DNA from: a virus | Strand: one strand, 5' to 3' | Length of the DNA stretch: 54,743 nt | Virus record (IMG/VR): IMGVR_UViG_3300032401_000014 | Coordinates: 1-54,743 of that record | Shown: positions 61 to 54,743 of the stretch, one piece after another | Numbering within the stretch: position 1 is the stretch's first letter | How the letters are laid out: the number at the start of each line of letters is the position of its first letter | The notes under the pieces: generated by a model | What the model saw: only the letters and a program-made list of their open reading frames with translations | Told to the model about the DNA's origin: nothing | The model's database searches: none | Translations under genes and position numbers: made by a program

Positions 61-254
61 TTCCCCTCCATTGCTTTTACTGTGGATTGCCACACCTTCC
101 ATAATTCACGCAATTTAGTTCCTTCATCTGGACATTGAAGTTCCCATATATATTCTTCTGCCGCCTTGCATCGCCGTTCATAATTATATAGTCTTTGCAA
201 CACATCTAAAATTGACATGTGGCCGTATATTTTATTTAATTCTGCTAATGTCAT
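57..254 (-). CDS. Small hypothetical protein, KAME-tail paralogue A (65 aa)
   Basis: I place the start at ATG 254 because a GGAGGCGGGGAA ribosome-binding site lies directly upstream; the frame is open further. The protein shares RCKAAE in its middle and WQSTVKAME at its end with the gene at 399-647, so the two are near-tandem paralogues. Its final codons form the ribosome-binding site of the next gene, and its TGA overlaps that gene's ATG. It is charged and soluble with no recognised domain. A variant sequence at the right end of the window lacks most of it. Confidence 0.75.
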   Translation of the reverse strand: MTLAELNKIYGHMSILDVLQRLYNYERRCKAAEEYIWELQCPDEGTKLRELWKVWQSTVKAMEGK

Positions 255-405
255 TTCCCCGCCTCCACAATATTTTGCAACCGCAATGTGGGCAATAATC
301 ATATCCCTGATTTATGGGATAACCACATCCACCGCAATTATAGGGATTGCCCAATTCATGCTTATCATATTTTGGTAAAATTGTTTTGTCTCTCTTATCT
401 AACAT
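232..405 (-). CDS. Small zinc-ribbon protein (57 aa)
   Basis: ATG 405 follows GGAGGAAAA, which is made by the last codons of the upstream gene, and overlaps that gene's end by 7 nt. The protein has two knuckles, CGGC (about residues 24-27) and CPHCGC (39-44), a Cys4 zinc ribbon. Its 3' end overlaps the next gene by 23 nt. It may bind nucleic acid or protein, but nothing here shows which. Confidence 0.7.
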   Translation of the reverse strand: MLDKRDKTILPKYDKHELGNPYNCGGCGYPINQGYDYCPHCGCKILWRRGNDISRIK

Positions 406-647
406 TTTTCCTCCATTGCTTTTACTGTGGATTGCCAGTTTATAAAATCTGCTCCCTCAAATCCTAAATCACTACCTTTGAAAACATTCTCTGCCGCCTT
501 GCATCTATTCTCCCATTGCAGACGGAGGGTGTGCTCGGCTTCGTAATCCATAATATCTTCAAAATTACCACAATCGCCCGGACACATGGCATCATCATAT
601 TTACACACGCAAGCGTGGATACAATCTGATCGTTCTGGTAATTTCAT
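399..647 (-). CDS. Cys-rich small protein, KAME-tail paralogue B (82 aa)
   Basis: ATG 647 follows a GGGGGGAAT ribosome-binding site shared with neighbouring genes. The N-terminal half is Cys-rich (CIHACVCKY, then CPGDC), probably metal-binding. The C-terminal half (ENRCKAAENVF ... WQSTVKAMEEKC) matches paralogue A at 57-254. The right end of the window carries another copy of its C-terminal half joined to the end of paralogue A. Function unknown. Confidence 0.75.
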   Translation of the reverse strand: MKLPERSDCIHACVCKYDDAMCPGDCGNFEDIMDYEAEHTLRLQWENRCKAAENVFKGSDLGFEGADFINWQSTVKAMEEKC

Positions 648-673
648 ATTCCCCCCATGATTTTATTTATAGG
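645..673 (-). repeat. Junction repeat beta, copy 1
   Basis: A 29-bp stretch nearly identical (28 of 29) to 2121-2149. It holds the end of one gene (TATAAATAA), a G-rich ribosome-binding site and the ATG of the next gene (start 647). The two copies sit between unrelated gene pairs. Confidence 0.85.
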
Positions 674-833
674 TTTCGTTCGGATTATCTATTGACATGG
701 TAAATTGGCAACATTCAGGCCAGCCCATTTGTAAACATTCGGCAACATCGACCAACTTTTGTTTGCCGCATATTCTACAAAAAACAATCCCAAGTTTTAA
801 CGATTCATGGCTATTTGCTATTTGATTATACAT
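663..833 (-). CDS. Possible independent small zinc-binding protein (56 aa), nested in frame
   Basis: ATG 833 follows AAGGGGGGAAT, the same ribosome-binding site used by the separate gene starting at 2307, and lies in the same frame as the radical SAM gene. The product has CRIC near residue 20 and a Cys pair near 40. It is probably translated both as the tail of the long protein and alone. An independent gene is inferred from the ribosome-binding site and the junction repeat, not proven. Confidence 0.55.
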   Translation of the reverse strand: MYNQIANSHESLKLGIVFCRICGKQKLVDVAECLQMGWPECCQFTMSIDNPNETYK

Positions 834-1667
834 ATTCCCCCCTTGATTCTTCTGCTCCAATGATAGTTTTGATCCAACAATAATACGATTGGCATATTCA
901 CGTTGAAATTTTCTCCATTCTCGTTTATCTTCTCGATCTTCGCCTCGATTATATAACATGGCCATTGGCATTAAACCCAACCTCAAAACTTGATGTAATC
1001 GTTTCTCAGCCTTTTCAAAAATGTCGCCCTTGTATCCGATCAAAACATAACATGAATAAATTCTATTGGTGTCTGTTAATGCCCCCGCCTCTCGTAACAT
1101 TTTACACGCCTCGATAAGTGGTTCATAATCGTCAAAAGTATCATAAGCGAAATAAACAGTTAATGGATTCAATTCCCTTAATCGTTCGGCGATCCATGGT
1201 TTCATTCTTTTTGCTTCCAGACCCCCGGTAAAACGTGGTCGAATCAGTTGTCGTTCCAACATTGTAAAAACTCGTTTAATATGATCCTCCGAACAAGCCA
1301 ATAAGTTAGAATCAAGTATATTATAACCGTTTTTAATTTCCAATTCTCGAATATTCCCCTCTCTTTTCGGCACTAAACAAAACCAACAATTATTGGGGCA
1401 TCCTCTCGATGTTATGATATAACCATACTTTAAGTATAAACCAGGTTCAAATTCATCACCCGGATCGTCATAAGCGGGGCCACCGATTGAAACCCTACTT
1501 GTCACTGATCGCCACGCCTCGGCAAGTTCCTCGCCTCGTTGCTTGTCCCATGTCCATGTCACTGATACCTTCACTTCGTCGGCCTCATCAAATAAATTTG
1601 GTTCAGTAAACCTTACATTTTCATCATCTGGTGTCGCCTTTGTTCGTCTGGGAAATACTCTAATCAA
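663..1667 (-). CDS. Radical SAM protein, fused in frame to a small zinc-binding protein
   Basis: The start is TTG 1667, set by a GGAG site about 9 bases upstream inside a 20-bp junction repeat; the methyltransferase gene at 3321 has the same arrangement. Residues 90-97 carry the radical SAM cluster motif CxxxCxxC (CPNNCWFC) followed by LVPKREG, so the protein should bind a 4Fe-4S cluster and S-adenosylmethionine. Upstream, SIGGPAY resembles the end of a degenerate cobalamin-binding-like domain. Residues 1-278 are the enzyme; the last 56 begin with a Met that has its own ribosome-binding site and carry CRIC and CC. The enzyme's stop codon seems lost at the junction. A related protein lies at 49022-50005. 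Substrate unknown. Confidence 0.85.
   Translation of the reverse strand: MIRVFPRRTKATPDDENVRFTEPNLFDEADEVKVSVTWTWDKQRGEELAEAWRSVTSRVSIGGPAYDDPGDEFEPGLYLKYGYIITSRGCPNNCWFCLVPKREGNIRELEIKNGYNILDSNLLACSEDHIKRVFTMLERQLIRPRFTGGLEAKRMKPWIAERLRELNPLTVYFAYDTFDDYEPLIEACKMLREAGALTDTNRIYSCYVLIGYKGDIFEKAEKRLHQVLRLGLMPMAMLYNRGEDREDKREWRKFQREYANRIIVGSKLSLEQKNQGGNMYNQIANSHESLKLGIVFCRICGKQKLVDVAECLQMGWPECCQFTMSIDNPNETYK
845..864 (-). repeat. Junction repeat alpha, copy 1 (inside fused radical SAM gene)
   Basis: On the minus strand the core is ATCATTGGAGCAGAAGAAT. Here it encodes SLEQKN just before the nested start at 833. Other copies are at 1665-1686, 2323-2342 and 3319-3340. Confidence 0.9.
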
Positions 1668-1686
1668 TTCTTCTGCTCCAATGATT
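1665..1686 (-). repeat. Junction repeat alpha, copy 2 (RBS of radical SAM gene)
   Basis: This copy is non-coding and supplies the GGAG site and TTG start for the radical SAM gene. It begins just downstream of the stop of the gene at 1692-1877. Confidence 0.9.
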
Positions 1687-1691
1687 CTAAT

Positions 1692-1877
1692 TTATCCTTT
1701 TACAAATTTAGATGCCTCTTTCAAATATTTTGCCACCTTTTTTATCTGTTTACCCCCATCATGTAGATTCCATTTTATTCTTTCATGGTTAATCATTTGT
1801 GCCCAATCCACATGACAAACTTTTCCGTTTTTAATTCCTATGCGTATATAATAATCTGGTATAACTTGTTGTATCAT
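1692..1877 (-). CDS. Small hypothetical protein (61 aa)
   Basis: ATG 1877 follows AAAGGAATTGGA, a moderate ribosome-binding site. The protein is basic and Lys-rich at its C-terminus (KQIKKVAKYLKEASKFVKG), with an N-terminal half of beta character (PDYYIRIGIKNGKVCHVDW). I recognise no domain. It sits in the small-gene run between the zinc-ribbon gene at 1890-2123 and the radical SAM gene. Its coding status rests on position, spacing and start site. Confidence 0.65.
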   Translation of the reverse strand: MIQQVIPDYYIRIGIKNGKVCHVDWAQMINHERIKWNLHDGGKQIKKVAKYLKEASKFVKG

Positions 1878-1889
1878 TCCAATTCCTTT

Positions 1890-2123
1890 TTATATTATTC
1901 CTCTAAACTTTCCATTTATTTTACCTCTTGTATTTTCTTTTGACTTATTAGCAGAGTTTCTACATCCACATTGAGGACATTCGAGACTTAAATCATCCGT
2001 GCCACGTGGATATACCGCCGTCCATTGATAAAAACAACGCATACACATAACCAAATCATTAACAACCCACTGCATTGGTTTTCTATTGGCAGGTAATATA
2101 ATTTTACGAAGTTCCCGCATCAT
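1890..2123 (-). CDS. Zinc-ribbon protein (77 aa)
   Basis: ATG 2123 (ATGATG) lies in junction repeat beta behind GAGGGGAAT. Two Cys pairs, CMRC (about residues 27-30) and CPQC (49-52), form a classic zinc ribbon. The ends are Lys/Arg-rich, which suits nucleic-acid binding. Role unknown. Confidence 0.7.
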   Translation of the reverse strand: MMRELRKIILPANRKPMQWVVNDLVMCMRCFYQWTAVYPRGTDDLSLECPQCGCRNSANKSKENTRGKINGKFRGII

Positions 2124-2149
2124 ATTCCCCTCATGATTTTATTTATAGG
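2121..2149 (-). repeat. Junction repeat beta, copy 2
   Basis: Matches 645-673 at 28 of 29 positions. Here the TATAAATAA part lies just outside the upstream gene, whose stop is at 2152-2154, so it looks like a relic of another gene's end. The RBS-ATG part drives the zinc-ribbon gene starting at 2123. Confidence 0.85.
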
Positions 2150-2151
2150 AT

Positions 2152-2307
2152 TCAATTATCTCTGAAAAATCTAAAACCACTTGCGCCATGCAATAATCCG
2201 ATAGTAATAACAAAAAAAGGAAAGCCGATTGTTATCATATAATTTTCTAATTTAATATAAAATCCTATCTGAATTTCAAAATAAAATGCCAATCTATATT
2301 GTCCCAT
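2152..2307 (-). CDS. Small hydrophobic protein (51 aa), probable membrane peptide
   Basis: ATG 2307 follows AAGGGGGGAAT, identical to the site upstream of 833. The middle is hydrophobic and aromatic (MITIGFPFFVITIGLLHG), enough for one membrane span, and the ends are polar. The stop is TGA at 2152. The shared, strong ribosome-binding site is the main argument that it is real. Function unknown. Confidence 0.6.
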   Translation of the reverse strand: MGQYRLAFYFEIQIGFYIKLENYMITIGFPFFVITIGLLHGASGFRFFRDN

Positions 2308-2316
2308 ATTCCCCCC

Positions 2317-3321
2317 TTAAGTATTCTTCTGCTCCAATGATTCAAATAATTTCCCCTGTTCTTTCAGATACGCAATTCGTTTATTTGCTATATTTATATA
2401 TTTCTGATTTAATTCTATACCGATATATTTACGGTCAAGTTTCAATGCCACGAGTGCCGTAGTCCCTGCACCCATGAACGGGTCAAGAACTATCCCACCT
2501 TCGGGACATCCGGCTTTAATCATGGGTATTATTAGTTTTTCGGGGAAGGTAGCAAAGTGAGCACCCTTAAATGGATGGTTCGGCACTTCCCATACAGATC
2601 GCTTATTCCGAATCATGTTCCCTTCTTCGTCTTGTTGCCATCGTGCATGACCCCTTGCGTGAATAGTTTGAGCATTTGAAACAGGCGTAAACCCATCAGT
2701 ATATTTCATAGAACCTTTCATCCTTGTTGCTTTTCGCCCATCATAGCTTGCTGTTTCTTTTATCGCTTCATTATCAAAATAATATCTCGGTGATTTACTC
2801 AACAAGAAAACATACTCATGCGATTTCGTGCATCGGTCAGTCACGCTCTCCGGCATCGAGTTTAGTTTCGACCAAATAATGTCTTGCCGTAAATGCCAAC
2901 CATCAGCCTGTAATGCAAAGGCGACATGCCAGGGGATACCCACAAGGTCTTTCGATTTTATTACAGGATGAAACGGGTCTTTCTGCATGTTTTTCCCTGC
3001 CAGTGTTCCTTTGTTTGTTCCTTGCTTCGTTCCTTCGAGATCAGTCTTGCTTCCCTTCCATCCACCGCCATAATAACTATCACCAAGATTCAGCCACAGT
3101 GTCCCGTCATTTTTCAGCACCCGCTGGACTTCTCTGAATATCTCGACCAATTTCCCGACATATTCTTCCGGCGTTTTTTCAAGTCCAATCTGTCCTTCAA
3201 TTCCATAATCACGCAATCCCCAGTATGGCGGGGAAGTTACGCAACAATTAACCAACTCATTCGGTAGTGTTTTCAAAACGGTTAAACTATCGCTATGAAT
3301 GATTTGATTGAGTTCTATCAA
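2317..3321 (-). CDS. Site-specific DNA methyltransferase (N6-adenine or N4-cytosine), 334 aa
   Basis: Transfers a methyl group from S-adenosylmethionine to an exocyclic amino group in DNA. Catalytic motif IV is SPPYW (residues 30-34) and the cofactor motif is DPFMGAG (about 280-286), an order seen in the beta-like amino-methyltransferases. Between them lies a variable recognition region with DKCTKSHEYVFLLSKS-type sequence. The start is TTG 3321 inside junction repeat alpha; the C-terminus (SLEQKNT) is encoded by another copy. No partner restriction nuclease is seen, so it is probably an orphan enzyme for protection against host restriction or for epigenetic control. Confidence 0.92.
   Translation of the reverse strand: MIELNQIIHSDSLTVLKTLPNELVNCCVTSPPYWGLRDYGIEGQIGLEKTPEEYVGKLVEIFREVQRVLKNDGTLWLNLGDSYYGGGWKGSKTDLEGTKQGTNKGTLAGKNMQKDPFHPVIKSKDLVGIPWHVAFALQADGWHLRQDIIWSKLNSMPESVTDRCTKSHEYVFLLSKSPRYYFDNEAIKETASYDGRKATRMKGSMKYTDGFTPVSNAQTIHARGHARWQQDEEGNMIRNKRSVWEVPNHPFKGAHFATFPEKLIIPMIKAGCPEGGIVLDPFMGAGTTALVALKLDRKYIGIELNQKYINIANKRIAYLKEQGKLFESLEQKNT
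2323..2342 (-). repeat. Junction repeat alpha, copy 3 (3' end of methyltransferase gene)
   Basis: Encodes SLEQKN at the end of the methyltransferase, then a stop, then the G-rich ribosome-binding site of the next gene. The composite resembles 831-864, where the stop codon is missing. Confidence 0.9.
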
Positions 3322-3340
3322 TTCTTCTGCTCCAATGATT
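3319..3340 (-). repeat. Junction repeat alpha, copy 4 (RBS of methyltransferase gene)
   Basis: Supplies the GGAG site and TTG start (3321) of the methyltransferase gene, and overlaps the stop of the gene ending at 3339. Same arrangement as 1665-1686. Confidence 0.9.
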
Positions 3341-4543: not shown

Positions 4544-5293
4544 TTATCCTTCGGCTATTTTTCTGATCTCTTCGGCACGGGCCGCCCGGCTCTCAGGCGT
4601 GGGCTTCTTCTTGTTGTTGCCAGACGCCAGTATCGAGTCCACTCTTGATAAAATGCTTGATGCTGTTATGGGAGCATCGGCCCAAAATTCCTTTGTTGCT
4701 TTTTTCTTTATGTCTAAAAATTTATTCATCATTGCGAACAGCTCATCCCCGGTCTTGAATCTGTCGAGTAGCTTCCCGATGTTTTTTGCTTCCTTGCCGT
4801 CGTAATAATACGAGTCGTTATGGAGAGAAAAGAATTTCCGCATTTCAAGCCGGAAGAACGCCTTATCACTGTTAATATCATTGTCATTATAATCCGTTAA
4901 TATAAAGTCCTTATTGTGAGAGGTTTCCTCTCTCTCGGAGAGAGGTTTCTGCTCACCTGCGTGAGAGGTTTCCTCTCTCGACGTGAGAGGTTTCCTCTCA
5001 CCCGTGAGAACTTTCTGCTCACCTTTGCTGTGCATCCTTTCGACCTCGGCGTTCCATTTGTCGGTGGTTTCTATGCCTGTTTTGTGCCTGAGTATCAATC
5101 CTTTCCTCTCAAGATCGTTCAAAATATCCTGCACGCTCCGACGACTAACCCCGATGAAATCTCCCAGATATTGTTTTGCCGCCGTGCAATATTTCCCTCT
5201 CGATAAAAAATAAATGCTGTCGCAGATCGCATACTGATTTAAACTCAATTCGAGCTTTTTTCTGACATCGTGGTCGATCGTTGTATATGGCAT
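4544..5293 (-). CDS. Replication initiator with winged helix and internal origin repeats (249 aa)
   Basis: ATG 5293 follows AAAAAAGGAGGTCTC, an ideal site; the frame is open further upstream. Residues about 15-70 form a winged helix (YLGDFIGVSRRSVQDIL ... LERKGLI) typical of phage replication initiators. Residues about 91-126 are a repetitive charged linker (GEQKVL, GERKPL, SREETSH, GEQKPL, EREETSH) encoded by palindromic 19-bp DNA repeats. The C-terminal part (FFRLEMRKFFSLHND ... ASSILSRVDSIL) is helical and may contact the helicase or loader. This mirrors lambda gpO, which binds iterons within its own gene. A promoter and structured leader precede it. Confidence 0.75.
   Translation of the reverse strand: MPYTTIDHDVRKKLELSLNQYAICDSIYFLSRGKYCTAAKQYLGDFIGVSRRSVQDILNDLERKGLILRHKTGIETTDKWNAEVERMHSKGEQKVLTGERKPLTSREETSHAGEQKPLSEREETSHNKDFILTDYNDNDINSDKAFFRLEMRKFFSLHNDSYYYDGKEAKNIGKLLDRFKTGDELFAMMNKFLDIKKKATKEFWADAPITASSILSRVDSILASGNNKKKPTPESRAARAEEIRKIAEG
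4862..5020. other. Putative replication origin: five 19-bp palindromic iterons plus AT-rich stretch
   Basis: The 19-mers at 4916-4934, 4936-4954, 4959-4977, 4981-4999 and 5002-5020 are variants of GTGAGAGGTTTCCTCTCAC, which has 8-bp arms around TTT. Their starts are 20 to 23 bp apart, about two helical turns. Directly beside them, 4862-4915 is roughly 75 percent AT, suitable for unwinding. All lie within the initiator gene, as in lambda, where O binds four imperfect 19-bp palindromes next to an AT-rich region. Confidence 0.7.
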
Positions 5294-6586: not shown

Positions 6587-7164
6587 GTTACCTCCTTCTT
6601 TTTCCGTGATATAAAATCCTTGATGGCCTGCTCTGCCTTGTATTTGCTGAGACATGCCAAAAAAGTAACGTCGGCATCCTTGTCGAAAACGTCCACCGAT
6701 TTGAACTTCCTGCCGTCGTACCAGAGCACAAGCCACTGATTTGTTCTTTTGATAATTTTATTCTCTATCGCCAGCCTATGATACCCGGCGAACTGCACCG
6801 GAGTATAGAGATATGCGGGCTTCGATCTTTTAAAGTCAATAATAGCCTTTTCACATATCAAGTCTGGCACTCCAGCATACATGTGTTTCCGTGACCATAA
6901 CGGCCGCTCGCTCTGAATCACATGCCCAGTCTCAGGATGCTCGTCGAACCACCGATCGAGAGCTATCAACATCGGATTCTCTCCAGGGTCATGAACATCG
7001 AAATACATCTGTATCAAATTGTGAGAATCCTTACCCTCTTGCCTCAAACGCTCCAGATGCTCCGGTGAGACAAAGAACTGCTTCGCCGGGAGTACATGGG
7101 TGACAGATGGAACCCGAACATCGTCAATAAAAAATTCATGCTTCTCTCTGTCAAAAATCAACAT
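6583..7164 (-). CDS. PD-(D/E)XK nuclease, RecB/Cas4-like (193 aa)
   Basis: ATG 7164 follows GAGGGGAGGAAAA and overlaps the end of the ERF gene by 14 nt; the frame is open upstream but that part lies inside the ERF gene. The nuclease motifs are GVPDL (D101) and IIDFK (D110, K112), with a QFAGY helix after them that resembles the conserved Q-x-x-x-Y of RecB-type exonucleases. Next to an ERF annealase it is most likely the 5'-3' exonuclease that makes single strands for annealing. Confidence 0.8.
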   Translation of the reverse strand: MLIFDREKHEFFIDDVRVPSVTHVLPAKQFFVSPEHLERLRQEGKDSHNLIQMYFDVHDPGENPMLIALDRWFDEHPETGHVIQSERPLWSRKHMYAGVPDLICEKAIIDFKRSKPAYLYTPVQFAGYHRLAIENKIIKRTNQWLVLWYDGRKFKSVDVFDKDADVTFLACLSKYKAEQAIKDFISRKKKEVT

Positions 7165-7957
7165 TTTTCCTCCCCTCGACCGCCTTGTCGATTGCCGCCT
7201 TGATCTTCTCATTGTCCCATTTACGATCTTTGCAAAATTGGAACGACGTGCTCTCATTGTAATTGAGAAGTTTAAACCCCTTCTGAATATACTCAGGCAA
7301 TTCTTTAAGCATCTTCTCGGCCTCGGCGAACTGTTTCTTTTTCTCTTCGTCTTCGATCTGGTTAGCGTCATTGTCCTCTCCGCTGACAACAATACCGAGA
7401 GCGTTCCTGATTGCATACCGTGACGCAAACGTCATGGCACTCGCCCATTTCTGCGGCTCGGTCATGAAGGCATCCTCCTGCACTCTGGCGGTAAAGGTAG
7501 ATTCTTCATAATGTCCCAGAATATGAGACACCTTCGCCACTACTTTCACTGCCGATGGCTCGTCAATAATGAGCGTGTCGAATTTATATAACAGGTCATG
7601 CTTCGACAAAAGTGGCTGAACGACCTTCATTATATCCTCGATCGCTGAAAACTTATATCGGGTTTTCGATTTGTCGTTTTTTTCAGGAACCCTTCTCCCT
7701 TTCGGAATGATCGGGCACTCTCCTTGAAACTTAGCCAATGCCGACCGATACGCTTGCTCAGCCTTCTCTTTCTGGAGCCGTTCTCTAAGATTGAATAAAC
7801 GCTCCAGTGTCTCCACGTTCCCGCCCTGCTTGATAGTCTCCATCATCATCTGCTCTGGAGTCACATCAACAGGAACCGAAACACTCCACTGGCCCGGAGC
7901 AACTGGATACTCAGGCTTGTGTACGATTCTTTTAACTGATTTTTTTTTATCTTTCAC
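7151..7957 (-). CDS. ERF-family single-strand annealing protein (268 aa)
   Basis: The start is GTG 7957, chosen because GGAGG lies 6 bases upstream; the frame is open to an unsupported TTG at 7978. Residues about 65-180 show the ERF pattern: AYRSALAKFQGECPII, then KGRRVPEK, RYKFSAIEDIMKVVQPLLSKHDL, and the later AMTFASRYAIRNALGI motif. ERF proteins anneal complementary single strands during recombination and genome circularisation. The exonuclease gene directly downstream completes a two-gene module. Confidence 0.88.
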   Translation of the reverse strand: MKDKKKSVKRIVHKPEYPVAPGQWSVSVPVDVTPEQMMMETIKQGGNVETLERLFNLRERLQKEKAEQAYRSALAKFQGECPIIPKGRRVPEKNDKSKTRYKFSAIEDIMKVVQPLLSKHDLLYKFDTLIIDEPSAVKVVAKVSHILGHYEESTFTARVQEDAFMTEPQKWASAMTFASRYAIRNALGIVVSGEDNDANQIEDEEKKKQFAEAEKMLKELPEYIQKGFKLLNYNESTSFQFCKDRKWDNEKIKAAIDKAVEGRKNVDF

Positions 7958-8297
7958 GTCTTGCCTCCTCTCTTTCAATATAAGAATCTGCTATGTCGCT
8001 CTGTCGCTGTGCTCTCATCTCTGAATAAACCCTGTCAGTCAGATCGGCATAGATTTTTTTAACTTTTTCTTCCGAGTATAGTTTCTCAATCGGGCTCCTT
8101 CCGTTTGCTATATTCACGAACAAACGGAACTCGCAATACTCGTCGTCACCAGGGTCATAATAAGCCGCATGGTCAGGGTTTCTGCACCACGGGGCCTGCC
8201 TCGCCGGAACGTAATTGTCCACGTCCGCCTCCAGCTCGATCTCGACTCCTGGCCTGATCTCATAATTCAACTCGATTGTGTTTCTTTTTTTTCTCAT
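7947..8297 (-). CDS. Hypothetical protein (116 aa)
   Basis: I choose ATG 8297, 9 bases after GAGG, over ATG 8306, which lies too close to it. The first half is acidic and beta-rich (TIELNYEIRPGVEIELEADV) with WCRNPDHAAYYDPGDDEYC, possibly a metal or carbohydrate site. The second half is helical and charged. It overlaps the ERF gene slightly and is co-transcribed with it. No known domain. Confidence 0.7.
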   Translation of the reverse strand: MRKKRNTIELNYEIRPGVEIELEADVDNYVPARQAPWCRNPDHAAYYDPGDDEYCEFRLFVNIANGRSPIEKLYSEEKVKKIYADLTDRVYSEMRAQRQSDIADSYIEREEARRER

Positions 8298-49003: not shown

Positions 49004-49030
49004 GTTATACACTTTATTTGTTTATGTCAA
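49004..49030 (-). promoter_or_regulatory. Possible promoter of the terminase genes
   Basis: TTGACA (49025-49030) and TATAAC (49004-49009) with a 15-bp spacer, shorter than ideal. The -35 box overlaps the last codons of the radical SAM gene. It lies in the only gap before terS. Confidence 0.5.
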
Positions 49031-50005
49031 GAACATTTTCTGTTGCTCTCCGTCCTTTCTGCATTTGAAAGTATCTCTGTCCACGGGTTTCTCTTTCACC
49101 CATCGGTTAAAATCGGCTAAAGTTTTCTGTGCCTTATACTCTTTTTTGCACCACGCAGGCAGGGTACATTTTTGCCACAATCGTATAATCGTCTCGTCGT
49201 GCTTTATGACTTTCTCAAAGTCCCTGTACTTCATCACGAACGGGTCAAACCCCAGTTGCTTGACAATGAACACCTTCTCGATGTCCTGATCTATCGTATT
49301 TTTAAATCCGACAAGCACATATACGGATACGTTCGCATCGGGTATCTTCGCCTGCTTTAATAGCTGGGCCTTCTCGATAAACAGGTCTTTGTCCTTGATG
49401 TCGTCCAGACTGAATCGCCACTGCTTGACAGGCCGCATCCGCTTGAGCAGGGCGGCTCTCTCCGGGGTCAGCAGGCGTATGTCCATCCCCTGATTGAAGT
49501 CGGCCCGCACCTTCTCTCGTATCAGTTGCTCGGCAATCGTCTCGAAGTGTCCCCGTGCGGCGAAGATGTTGTTGTCGATAAAAATAATGCCATCACTCCC
49601 CTTCATCCAGAACTCGTAAATGTCGGCATTTTTCTGTATGAGCCCTTCTTTTCTTGGAACAACACACCACGGACATTTACGAATACATCCACGGGTGGCA
49701 AATCCCACGGAATACGGGAAGTGAGGGTACAGCGAATAGTCCGGCATGATGTGTTCGATCTCCGGCGGAAGGCAGGTTCCGTAGTCCCGGTATCCAGTCC
49801 CCCCGGTAACGATCTTATCAGCCTGATAGCAATAGAGCGGGTCTTCAGTCCATGTAAATACCTTGCTCTTATAGATAACATCATAGTGCTCGAACATCGT
49901 CGCAAACTCAACACTGTCGCCCTGTCCCTTGTGCCACGCTGAGAGCTTCATCAGTGCAAGGTTCGGGAAATTTTTGCTGTCTACATCGAGTAATCCTATT
50001 TTCAT
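49022..50005 (-). CDS. Radical SAM protein with cobalamin-binding-like N-domain (327 aa)
   Basis: ATG 50005 follows AAAAGGAGACGC. The radical SAM motif is CIRKCPWC (C107, C111, C114), with GFATRG before and VVPRKEG after it. The N-terminal ~85 residues (KIGLLDVDSKNFPNLALMKLSAWHKGQGD) resemble a degenerate B12-binding Rossmann domain without the cobalamin His motif. It is a distant relative of the gene at 663-1667. The substrate is unknown; methylthiolation, base modification or peptide chemistry are possible. Confidence 0.85.
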   Translation of the reverse strand: MKIGLLDVDSKNFPNLALMKLSAWHKGQGDSVEFATMFEHYDVIYKSKVFTWTEDPLYCYQADKIVTGGTGYRDYGTCLPPEIEHIMPDYSLYPHFPYSVGFATRGCIRKCPWCVVPRKEGLIQKNADIYEFWMKGSDGIIFIDNNIFAARGHFETIAEQLIREKVRADFNQGMDIRLLTPERAALLKRMRPVKQWRFSLDDIKDKDLFIEKAQLLKQAKIPDANVSVYVLVGFKNTIDQDIEKVFIVKQLGFDPFVMKYRDFEKVIKHDETIIRLWQKCTLPAWCKKEYKAQKTLADFNRWVKEKPVDRDTFKCRKDGEQQKMFLT

Positions 50006-54358: not shown

Positions 54359-54507
54359 CACTTCACCTGTTCTAAAATATATTTAGCTTGAGACACTGCC
54401 TGAGAGTACCCCAGTGGCATCGCCCAGCCGTCGGGAACGCTATTGACGAGAAGATGCACGGCCTCGATCAATTTTTTTATCTTCTGCTTGTCGTTCAGTA
54501 TTTTCAT
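54358..54507 (-). CDS. Small helical protein (49 aa)
   Basis: ATG 54507 overlaps the previous stop as ATGA, with GGAGGCGGGGAA made by that gene's last codons. Helical (KQKIKKLIEAVHLLVNSVPDGWAM ... QAVSQAKYILEQVK). An earlier start is possible in frame but unsupported. Function unknown. Confidence 0.7.
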   Translation of the reverse strand: MKILNDKQKIKKLIEAVHLLVNSVPDGWAMPLGYSQAVSQAKYILEQVK

Positions 54508-54650
54508 TTCCCCGCCTCCATTGCTTTTACTGATATAACGTCCTGTATGCCAAAAAACTTCTTTACTTCTTCTGCATTGTAGTTGGCTCCTTGTATAACT
54601 GACGAACGAATCATCATAGAACAAATTTCAATTTTTTCCTCTGGTGTCAT
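54504..54650 (-). CDS. Small hypothetical protein with KAME tail (48 aa)
   Basis: ATG 54650 overlaps the end of the previous gene and is preceded by GGAGGGGAA. Contains EEKIEICSMMIRSSVIQGANYNAEEVKKFFG and ends SVKAMEAGK, like the paralogues at 57-254 and 399-647. Its first part is repeated at window positions 1-60. Confidence 0.75.
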   Translation of the reverse strand: MTPEEKIEICSMMIRSSVIQGANYNAEEVKKFFGIQDVISVKAMEAGK

Positions 54651-54743
54651 TTCCCCTCCATTGCTTTTACTGTGGATTGCCAGTTTATAAAATCTGCTCC
54701 CTCAAATCCTAAATCACTACCTTTGAAAACATTCTCTGCCGCC
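54591..54743. repeat. Terminal repeat: 92-bp circle overlap, then jump to a second copy
   Basis: 54591-54682 equals 1-92; 54683-54743 equals 438-498. The switch occurs at the end of a 28-bp sequence found at 65-92 and 410-437. So the right end follows a genome form lacking 345 bp (115 codons). Confidence 0.9.
54647..54743 (-). CDS. Hybrid of KAME-tail paralogues, 5' cut by window edge
   Basis: Codes for AAENVFKGSDLGFEGADF then INWQSTVKAMEGK. The first part equals the gene at 399-647; the end equals the gene at 57-254. It is what an in-frame crossover between the two paralogues would make, removing the zinc-ribbon gene at 232-405. Confidence 0.8.
   Translation of the reverse strand, partial: AAENVFKGSDLGFEGADFINWQSTVKAMEGK

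Follow-up and report, generated by a model that had tools for sequence, protein, structure and literature searches.

A single short repeat recurs at four gene junctions within a tailed-phage accessory region

Two competing answers have been given to how whole genes are swapped without frame damage: random joining followed by selection, and recombination at short shared boundaries. Recombination of the second kind is rarely seen directly because the boundaries usually cannot be found. In lambdoid phages, short conserved junction sequences are the proposed sites of modular exchange through homologous recombination (Clark et al. 2001, as cited in PMC3029335). In the Island3/Brujita case from Cluster I mycobacteriophages, two neighbouring genes share 3'-end DNA (18 residues), and only one copy, of recombinant form, is present in a sister genome (PMC3029335). 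The Start-Associated Sequences (SAS) of Cluster K mycobacteriophages are short repeats with an embedded Shine-Dalgarno sequence at the starts of accessory genes (PMC3203893). Integron attC cassettes occur in phages as arrays of accessory genes separated by a repeated boundary (PMC9892861), and in T4-type phages repeated intergenic elements of promoter plus stem-loop, the promoter-early stem-loops (PeSLs), are thought to mediate modular shuffling (Arbiol 2010 and Comeau 2014, as cited in PMC4503421). Here, a short repeat termed R is described at four gene junctions of the IMG/VR virus record IMGVR_UViG_3300032401_000014, which was analyzed over its whole 54,743 nt (the window). This one genome shows several boundary families, and one family seems to be present in its parental as well as its recombinant form, which makes the short-boundary idea directly testable at a handful of junctions.

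The window encodes a terminase, portal, major head protein, tail sheath and collagen-like tail fibre. All gene calls used are on the minus strand, and R is found towards the left end, among a series of small accessory genes. R (ATCATTGGAGCAGAAGAAT, 19 nt) is present in four exact copies with 100% identity across all of them, compared with 0.04 copies expected by chance, and none of 100 shuffles reached four. No further copy was detected in the window when up to 3 mismatches were allowed. The copies and the two unrelated genes that each lie between direct copies of R are as follows.

3321-3339, minus strand: R copy 4, start-type, directly after the stop of g3339-3938; gives the GGAG Shine-Dalgarno and the TTG start of the methyltransferase gene
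2317-3321, minus strand: N6_N4 DNA methyltransferase (Pfam PF01555, E=1e-52; phrog_67), between R copies 4 and 3
2323-2341, minus strand: R copy 3, end-type; encodes the methyltransferase C-terminal SLEQKN, then T-stop and GGGGGGAATATG of the next gene
1667-1685, minus strand: R copy 2, start-type; Shine-Dalgarno and TTG start of the radical-SAM gene
846-1667, minus strand: radical-SAM gene (phrog_9298, E=3.5e-20), between R copies 2 and 1; the open reading frame (ORF) continues to 663
846-864, minus strand: R copy 1, end-type; encodes the SLEQKN ending the radical-SAM gene, without a stop and with in-frame read-through into orfB

Read 5' to 3' on the minus strand, the order is g3339, R, methyltransferase, R, orfA, J1, zinc-ribbon gene, g1692, R, radical SAM, R, orfB, J1, g399, J2, g260, g57 and J2, where J1 and J2 are further junction repeats. 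In the start-type copies the GGAG stands 8 nt ahead of the TTG start, and identity between the two extends over 24 nt (3317-3340 and 1663-1686) and 29 of 31 nt overall. In the end-type copies the SLEQKN codons are followed by AAGGGGGGAATATG, which is the Shine-Dalgarno and start of the next gene. The reuse of one repeat at four gene junctions is thus confirmed. A preliminary description of this DNA had reported a 20-bp core at these places; the sites and the exact fourfold repeat stand, with a common stretch of 19 nt rather than 20 and coordinates drawn 1-2 nt too wide. The roles it assigned were borne out, GGAG Shine-Dalgarno plus TTG start at 3321 and 1667 and SLEQKN followed by GGGGGGAATATG at 2323 and 846. 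It had also taken both SLEQKN copies as protein ends, which holds at 2323; at 846 there is no stop and the ORF 663-1667 continues.

The gene bodies were then compared with their homologues at the edges of R. Radical-SAM relatives in other loci have the N-terminus M-K-L/I-I-R-V-F-P and end in ..IVGSK(L/M) followed by variable residues. The window gene is homologous to them from the TTG directly after R to the codon before R, and the stretch between its two R copies is the part homologous to the genes of L006-L009 and L094 (loci fetched as radical-SAM relatives). R stands in place of the native start ATG-AAR, and SLEQKN replaces the tail after IIVGSKL/M. The methyltransferase homologues likewise start and end near the R edges. 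These borders indicate that R replaces native gene ends, as expected if gene bodies had been joined into R-type boundaries. Compared with the end boundary of the methyltransferase, that of the radical-SAM gene is 3 nt shorter and lacks the stop, and the 334-amino-acid ORF 663-1667 joins the radical-SAM gene and the small cysteine-rich orfB in a single frame. By a frame check only, all six possible combinations of R × R deletion keep the flanking reading frames open; the product of copies 3 and 2 would be a methyltransferase ending in SLEQKN-TGA that overlaps the radical-SAM TTG. Since every R × R join is frame-compatible, R is usable as a stop/Shine-Dalgarno/start adaptor.

R is accompanied in the same accessory region by three more families of junction repeat, J1 (two copies), J2 (three copies plus a recombinant) and K (two copies), and by a 14-nt pair, G6; J1, J2 and K, like the relation of the contig ends, are absent from the preliminary description. 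Exact repeat pairs were counted at a length of at least 16 nt with the contig ends joined, so that the 14-nt G6 pair falls below the threshold. The accessory 11 kb contains 15 such pairs, compared with 0.05 expected. In the other 43 kb there are five, of which three fall in the low-complexity stretch of the collagen-like tail-fibre gene at 15.2-15.5 kb. Every copy of R, J1, J2, K and G6 touches a gene edge, compared with 13.8% of positions, although copies within a family are not independent.

2305-2318, minus strand: G6 junction AAGGGGGGAATATG, Shine-Dalgarno and start of orfA
831-844, minus strand: G6 junction AAGGGGGGAATATG, Shine-Dalgarno and start of orfB
2132-2149, minus strand: J1 CCTATAAATAAAATCATG, upstream of the zinc-ribbon gene 1890-2123; 32 of 34 nt shared with the other J1 copy
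656-673, minus strand: second J1 copy, upstream of g399-647
410-437, minus strand: J2 TGGCAATCCACAGTAAAAGCAATGGAGG, 28 bp, at the end of g399
65-92, minus strand: second J2 copy, end of g57 and Shine-Dalgarno of the next gene
54515-54532, minus strand: J2 core, 18 nt, located where an unrelated small gene (MTPEEK..VKAMEAGK) ends
54655-54682, minus strand: J2 in recombinant form; upstream flank equal to 438-498, downstream flank equal to 1-64, the two inter-J2 genes missing
54504-54520, minus strand: K junction TGGAGGCGGGGAAATGA
251-267, minus strand: second copy of K junction TGGAGGCGGGGAAATGA, Shine-Dalgarno and start of g57

The remaining pairs of the accessory region are a palindromic repeat within g4544 and a 16-mer within two paralogues. 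Repeated palindromic GAGAGGAAACCTCTCAC units were also noted at 4916-5024, inside the HTH gene g4544-5341.

The right contig end is an exact J2 × J2 recombinant of the left end. Positions 54655-54743 match 410-498 over 89 nt, and positions 54591-54682 match 1-92 over 92 nt, with no mismatch in either, and the two matches overlap in precisely the 28-bp J2. On the simplest reading, the left end has the long form, g399-J2-g260-g57-J2-next gene, and the right end the short form, g399-J2-next gene; the two differ by a precise 345-bp deletion of two genes between J2 copies. The flanks of the short-form junction are 100% identical to the long form on both sides, as for a contemporary variant, and the short form looks like a variant present in the population and not like a chimera of library or assembly. 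For J2 the Island3/Brujita event, which is of the same type, is the closest precedent; there, two isolated phages and one repeat were involved, whereas here both forms stand at the ends of one metagenomic contig that holds several repeat families. A search of viral contigs with the J2 core returned three matches, a number close to chance (about one by our own estimate), and these lie inside reading frames of unrelated contigs. The same reading has the contig ends overlapping, the gene that position 1 interrupts being whole at the right end. As a separate observation, the exact 92-nt match of its ends makes it probable that the record, which is classed as linear, is a near-complete genome of circular or permuted type.

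A comparable arrangement was observed on an unrelated phage contig, L008, whose radical-SAM gene (70% identical) is flanked on either side by a perfect 24-bp repeat, AAACAGGAGATACTTATATGAGCA. This repeat encodes KQEILI*, the C-terminus common to the L008 radical-SAM gene and the nuclease-like gene upstream of it, and both copies give the Shine-Dalgarno and ATG start of the next ORF. The bracketing follows the design of R in a different sequence. Weaker bracketing, of 13-18 nt, was found in L009 and L095. The control set consisted of 791 ORFs of at least 120 amino acids from other fetched loci, duplicate records and both strands included. Flanking repeats scoring at least 17 were found for five of these, one of them the L008 radical-SAM gene itself, indicating that gene-flanking repeats are rare. 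Flanking repeats were not general around methyltransferase homologues in 80 loci, and bracketing is thus not a property of the methyltransferase family. When relatives of L008 lacking the radical-SAM insertion were sought through the upstream nuclease gene, only the same record and distant partial matches were returned, with no empty site.

Taken together, R (19-24 bp) is probably a reused gene-boundary sequence in a tailed-phage accessory region, where it punctuates exchangeable small modules along with J1, J2, K and G6. Each boundary contains the final codons of the gene before it and/or the Shine-Dalgarno and start codon of the gene after it, and homologous (single-strand annealing) recombination between copies would remove, add or swap whole genes with their frames intact. 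The methyltransferase and radical-SAM genes may have arrived by such boundary recombination, and R itself may still recombine. One gene of the window is of interest as the possible agent.

7151-7978, minus strand: ERF-family single-strand annealing protein (PF04404, E=8e-23; phrog_155, E=3e-31)

Rad52-like phage recombinases, Erf among them, recombine short or diverged homologies (PMC3945230), and the ERF protein is a plausible candidate for short-homology recombination at R or J2.

Short-match boundary recombination is known in principle; what differs here is that one sequence acts as a stop/Shine-Dalgarno/start adaptor at several junctions of one genome. The lambdoid boundary sequences are shared between the same junctions of different phages. 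R resembles them as a short conserved sequence at gene junctions, the likeness that the preliminary description had drawn, and its location bears this out. It differs in that a single genome uses it at four junctions, in coding as well as non-coding roles, and in the lack of a boundary common to different phages, since no exact copy was found elsewhere in the IMG/VR viral contigs, the kind of 20-mer search that had been proposed. The lambdoid side of this comparison rests on a secondary citation. Strict membership of R in the lambdoid-type class is not established; its mode of action would be the same in outline, and R may best be filed as working like those sequences or as a variant of them. 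It differs from PeSLs in that it has no stem-loop, contains no site listed by the promoter and terminator scan in any copy, and overlaps coding sequence.

Several points weigh against this boundary-sequence reading. Neither a relative carrying an R-bounded gene nor one lacking it was found, and close relatives sought through the gene beside R, the terminase, the small genes and the zinc-ribbon gene yielded none close enough for synteny; R × R exchange is unobserved because no R-carrying relative was found. The gene-cassette exchange proposed earlier is backed in part, by the position of R at homology borders, the kept frames, the J2 breakpoint and the L008 bracketing, with no gain or loss seen at the 19-mer itself. 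The R copies are not of one type, the end-type copies being followed by other Shine-Dalgarno sequences and the radical-SAM copy lacking a stop. Clear bracketing was met in only one other relative, L008, that of L009 and L095 being weak. The J2 recombinant could be a polymerase chain reaction, library or assembly chimera through the 28-bp repeat. Furthermore, J2 lies in the C-termini of the paralogues g399 and g57 (46% identity over 41 amino acids), and gene duplication may partly account for it.

A more far-reaching version, which is rather unlikely, is that the R-bounded units form an active integrase-free cassette system. Selection would have fitted one adaptor to act, in register, as tail of a protein's C-terminus, as stop, as ribosome-binding site and as start; the annealing protein of the phage itself would insert, delete or reorder any R-flanked gene, and comparable adaptors of other sequence would have arisen in other phages.

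It is unlikely that R is instead a fossil of a tandem duplication of a block (R-gene-R-small gene-J1), with inner genes later replaced or diverged and no ongoing role in exchange. The order R-x-R-GGGGGG-small ORF-J1 is indeed present twice, with nearly the same distance from R to J1 (198 and 197 nt), and the occurrence of J2 in two paralogous genes would fit as well. The genes inside the two R blocks are unrelated by BLASTP, yet R is 100% identical in all four copies, and replacement of genes between intact repeats would itself require recombination at the borders.

Selection on R as a translation-initiation or regulatory element at gene starts, in the manner of SAS, is improbable. The GGAG 8 nt before TTG in two copies is in keeping with it, and SAS are likewise short repeats with an embedded Shine-Dalgarno, at non-structural genes only (PMC3203893). 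SAS lie nearly all at starts, whereas half of the R copies (two of four) encode C-termini and have another, G-rich Shine-Dalgarno after them; R occurs at no other start in the window, and it has no stable fold.

Other relatives of the radical-SAM gene (77% identical) lie among attC-like stem-loops in L006, L007 and L094, the last a contig of a Bacteroidota metagenome-assembled genome. The positions concerned are given below.

L006, 5867-6847: attC-like array unit
L094, 3097-4077: attC-like array unit
L007, 5201-5262 and 6841-6902: positions in an attC-like array

The virus contig L006 and L094 have a 981-bp unit in common (99.7% identity) that ends on AAC cores, and no integron integrase was present in the two virus records of the attC-like arrays. 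Although the R-bounded units look like a cassette array, the R region being likewise an accessory array with a repeated boundary, although these closest radical-SAM relatives lie between attC-like stem-loops and although the window encodes an HNH-AP2 endonuclease, it is very improbable that R serves a site-specific cassette system as its core site, whether as an integron attC-like site or as an endonuclease or recombinase target duplicated on insertion, because R shows none of the attC structure by the fold and sequence check (no stable fold, stem-loop, notable inverted repeat, imperfect or otherwise, or GTTRRRY core), the window gave no attC-like site by the scan used and no match to the integron integrase TIGR02249, and the other repeat families and the L008 repeat are unrelated in sequence, with no single enzyme target evident. 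An integron origin of R specifically was rejected on the lack of an attC-like site and of the integrase in the window and of a fold in R. A search of the window against Rfam gave no match.

L094 also carries a homologue of the zinc-ribbon gene of the window (56%). Together with the attC-like arrays and the L008 repeat, this indicates that the radical-SAM and zinc-ribbon genes belong to a shared accessory pool that moves under more than one boundary type. A copy of the radical-SAM gene was also noted on an Alistipes plasmid, and the window holds a second radical-SAM gene at 49022-50005 (phrog_9298, E=4.5e-88), 27% identical to the R-bounded one. In a further locus, L028 (3566-4662), two nearly identical repeats of 36 nt flank a GIY-YIG-like ORF, possibly an endonuclease insertion with flank duplication.

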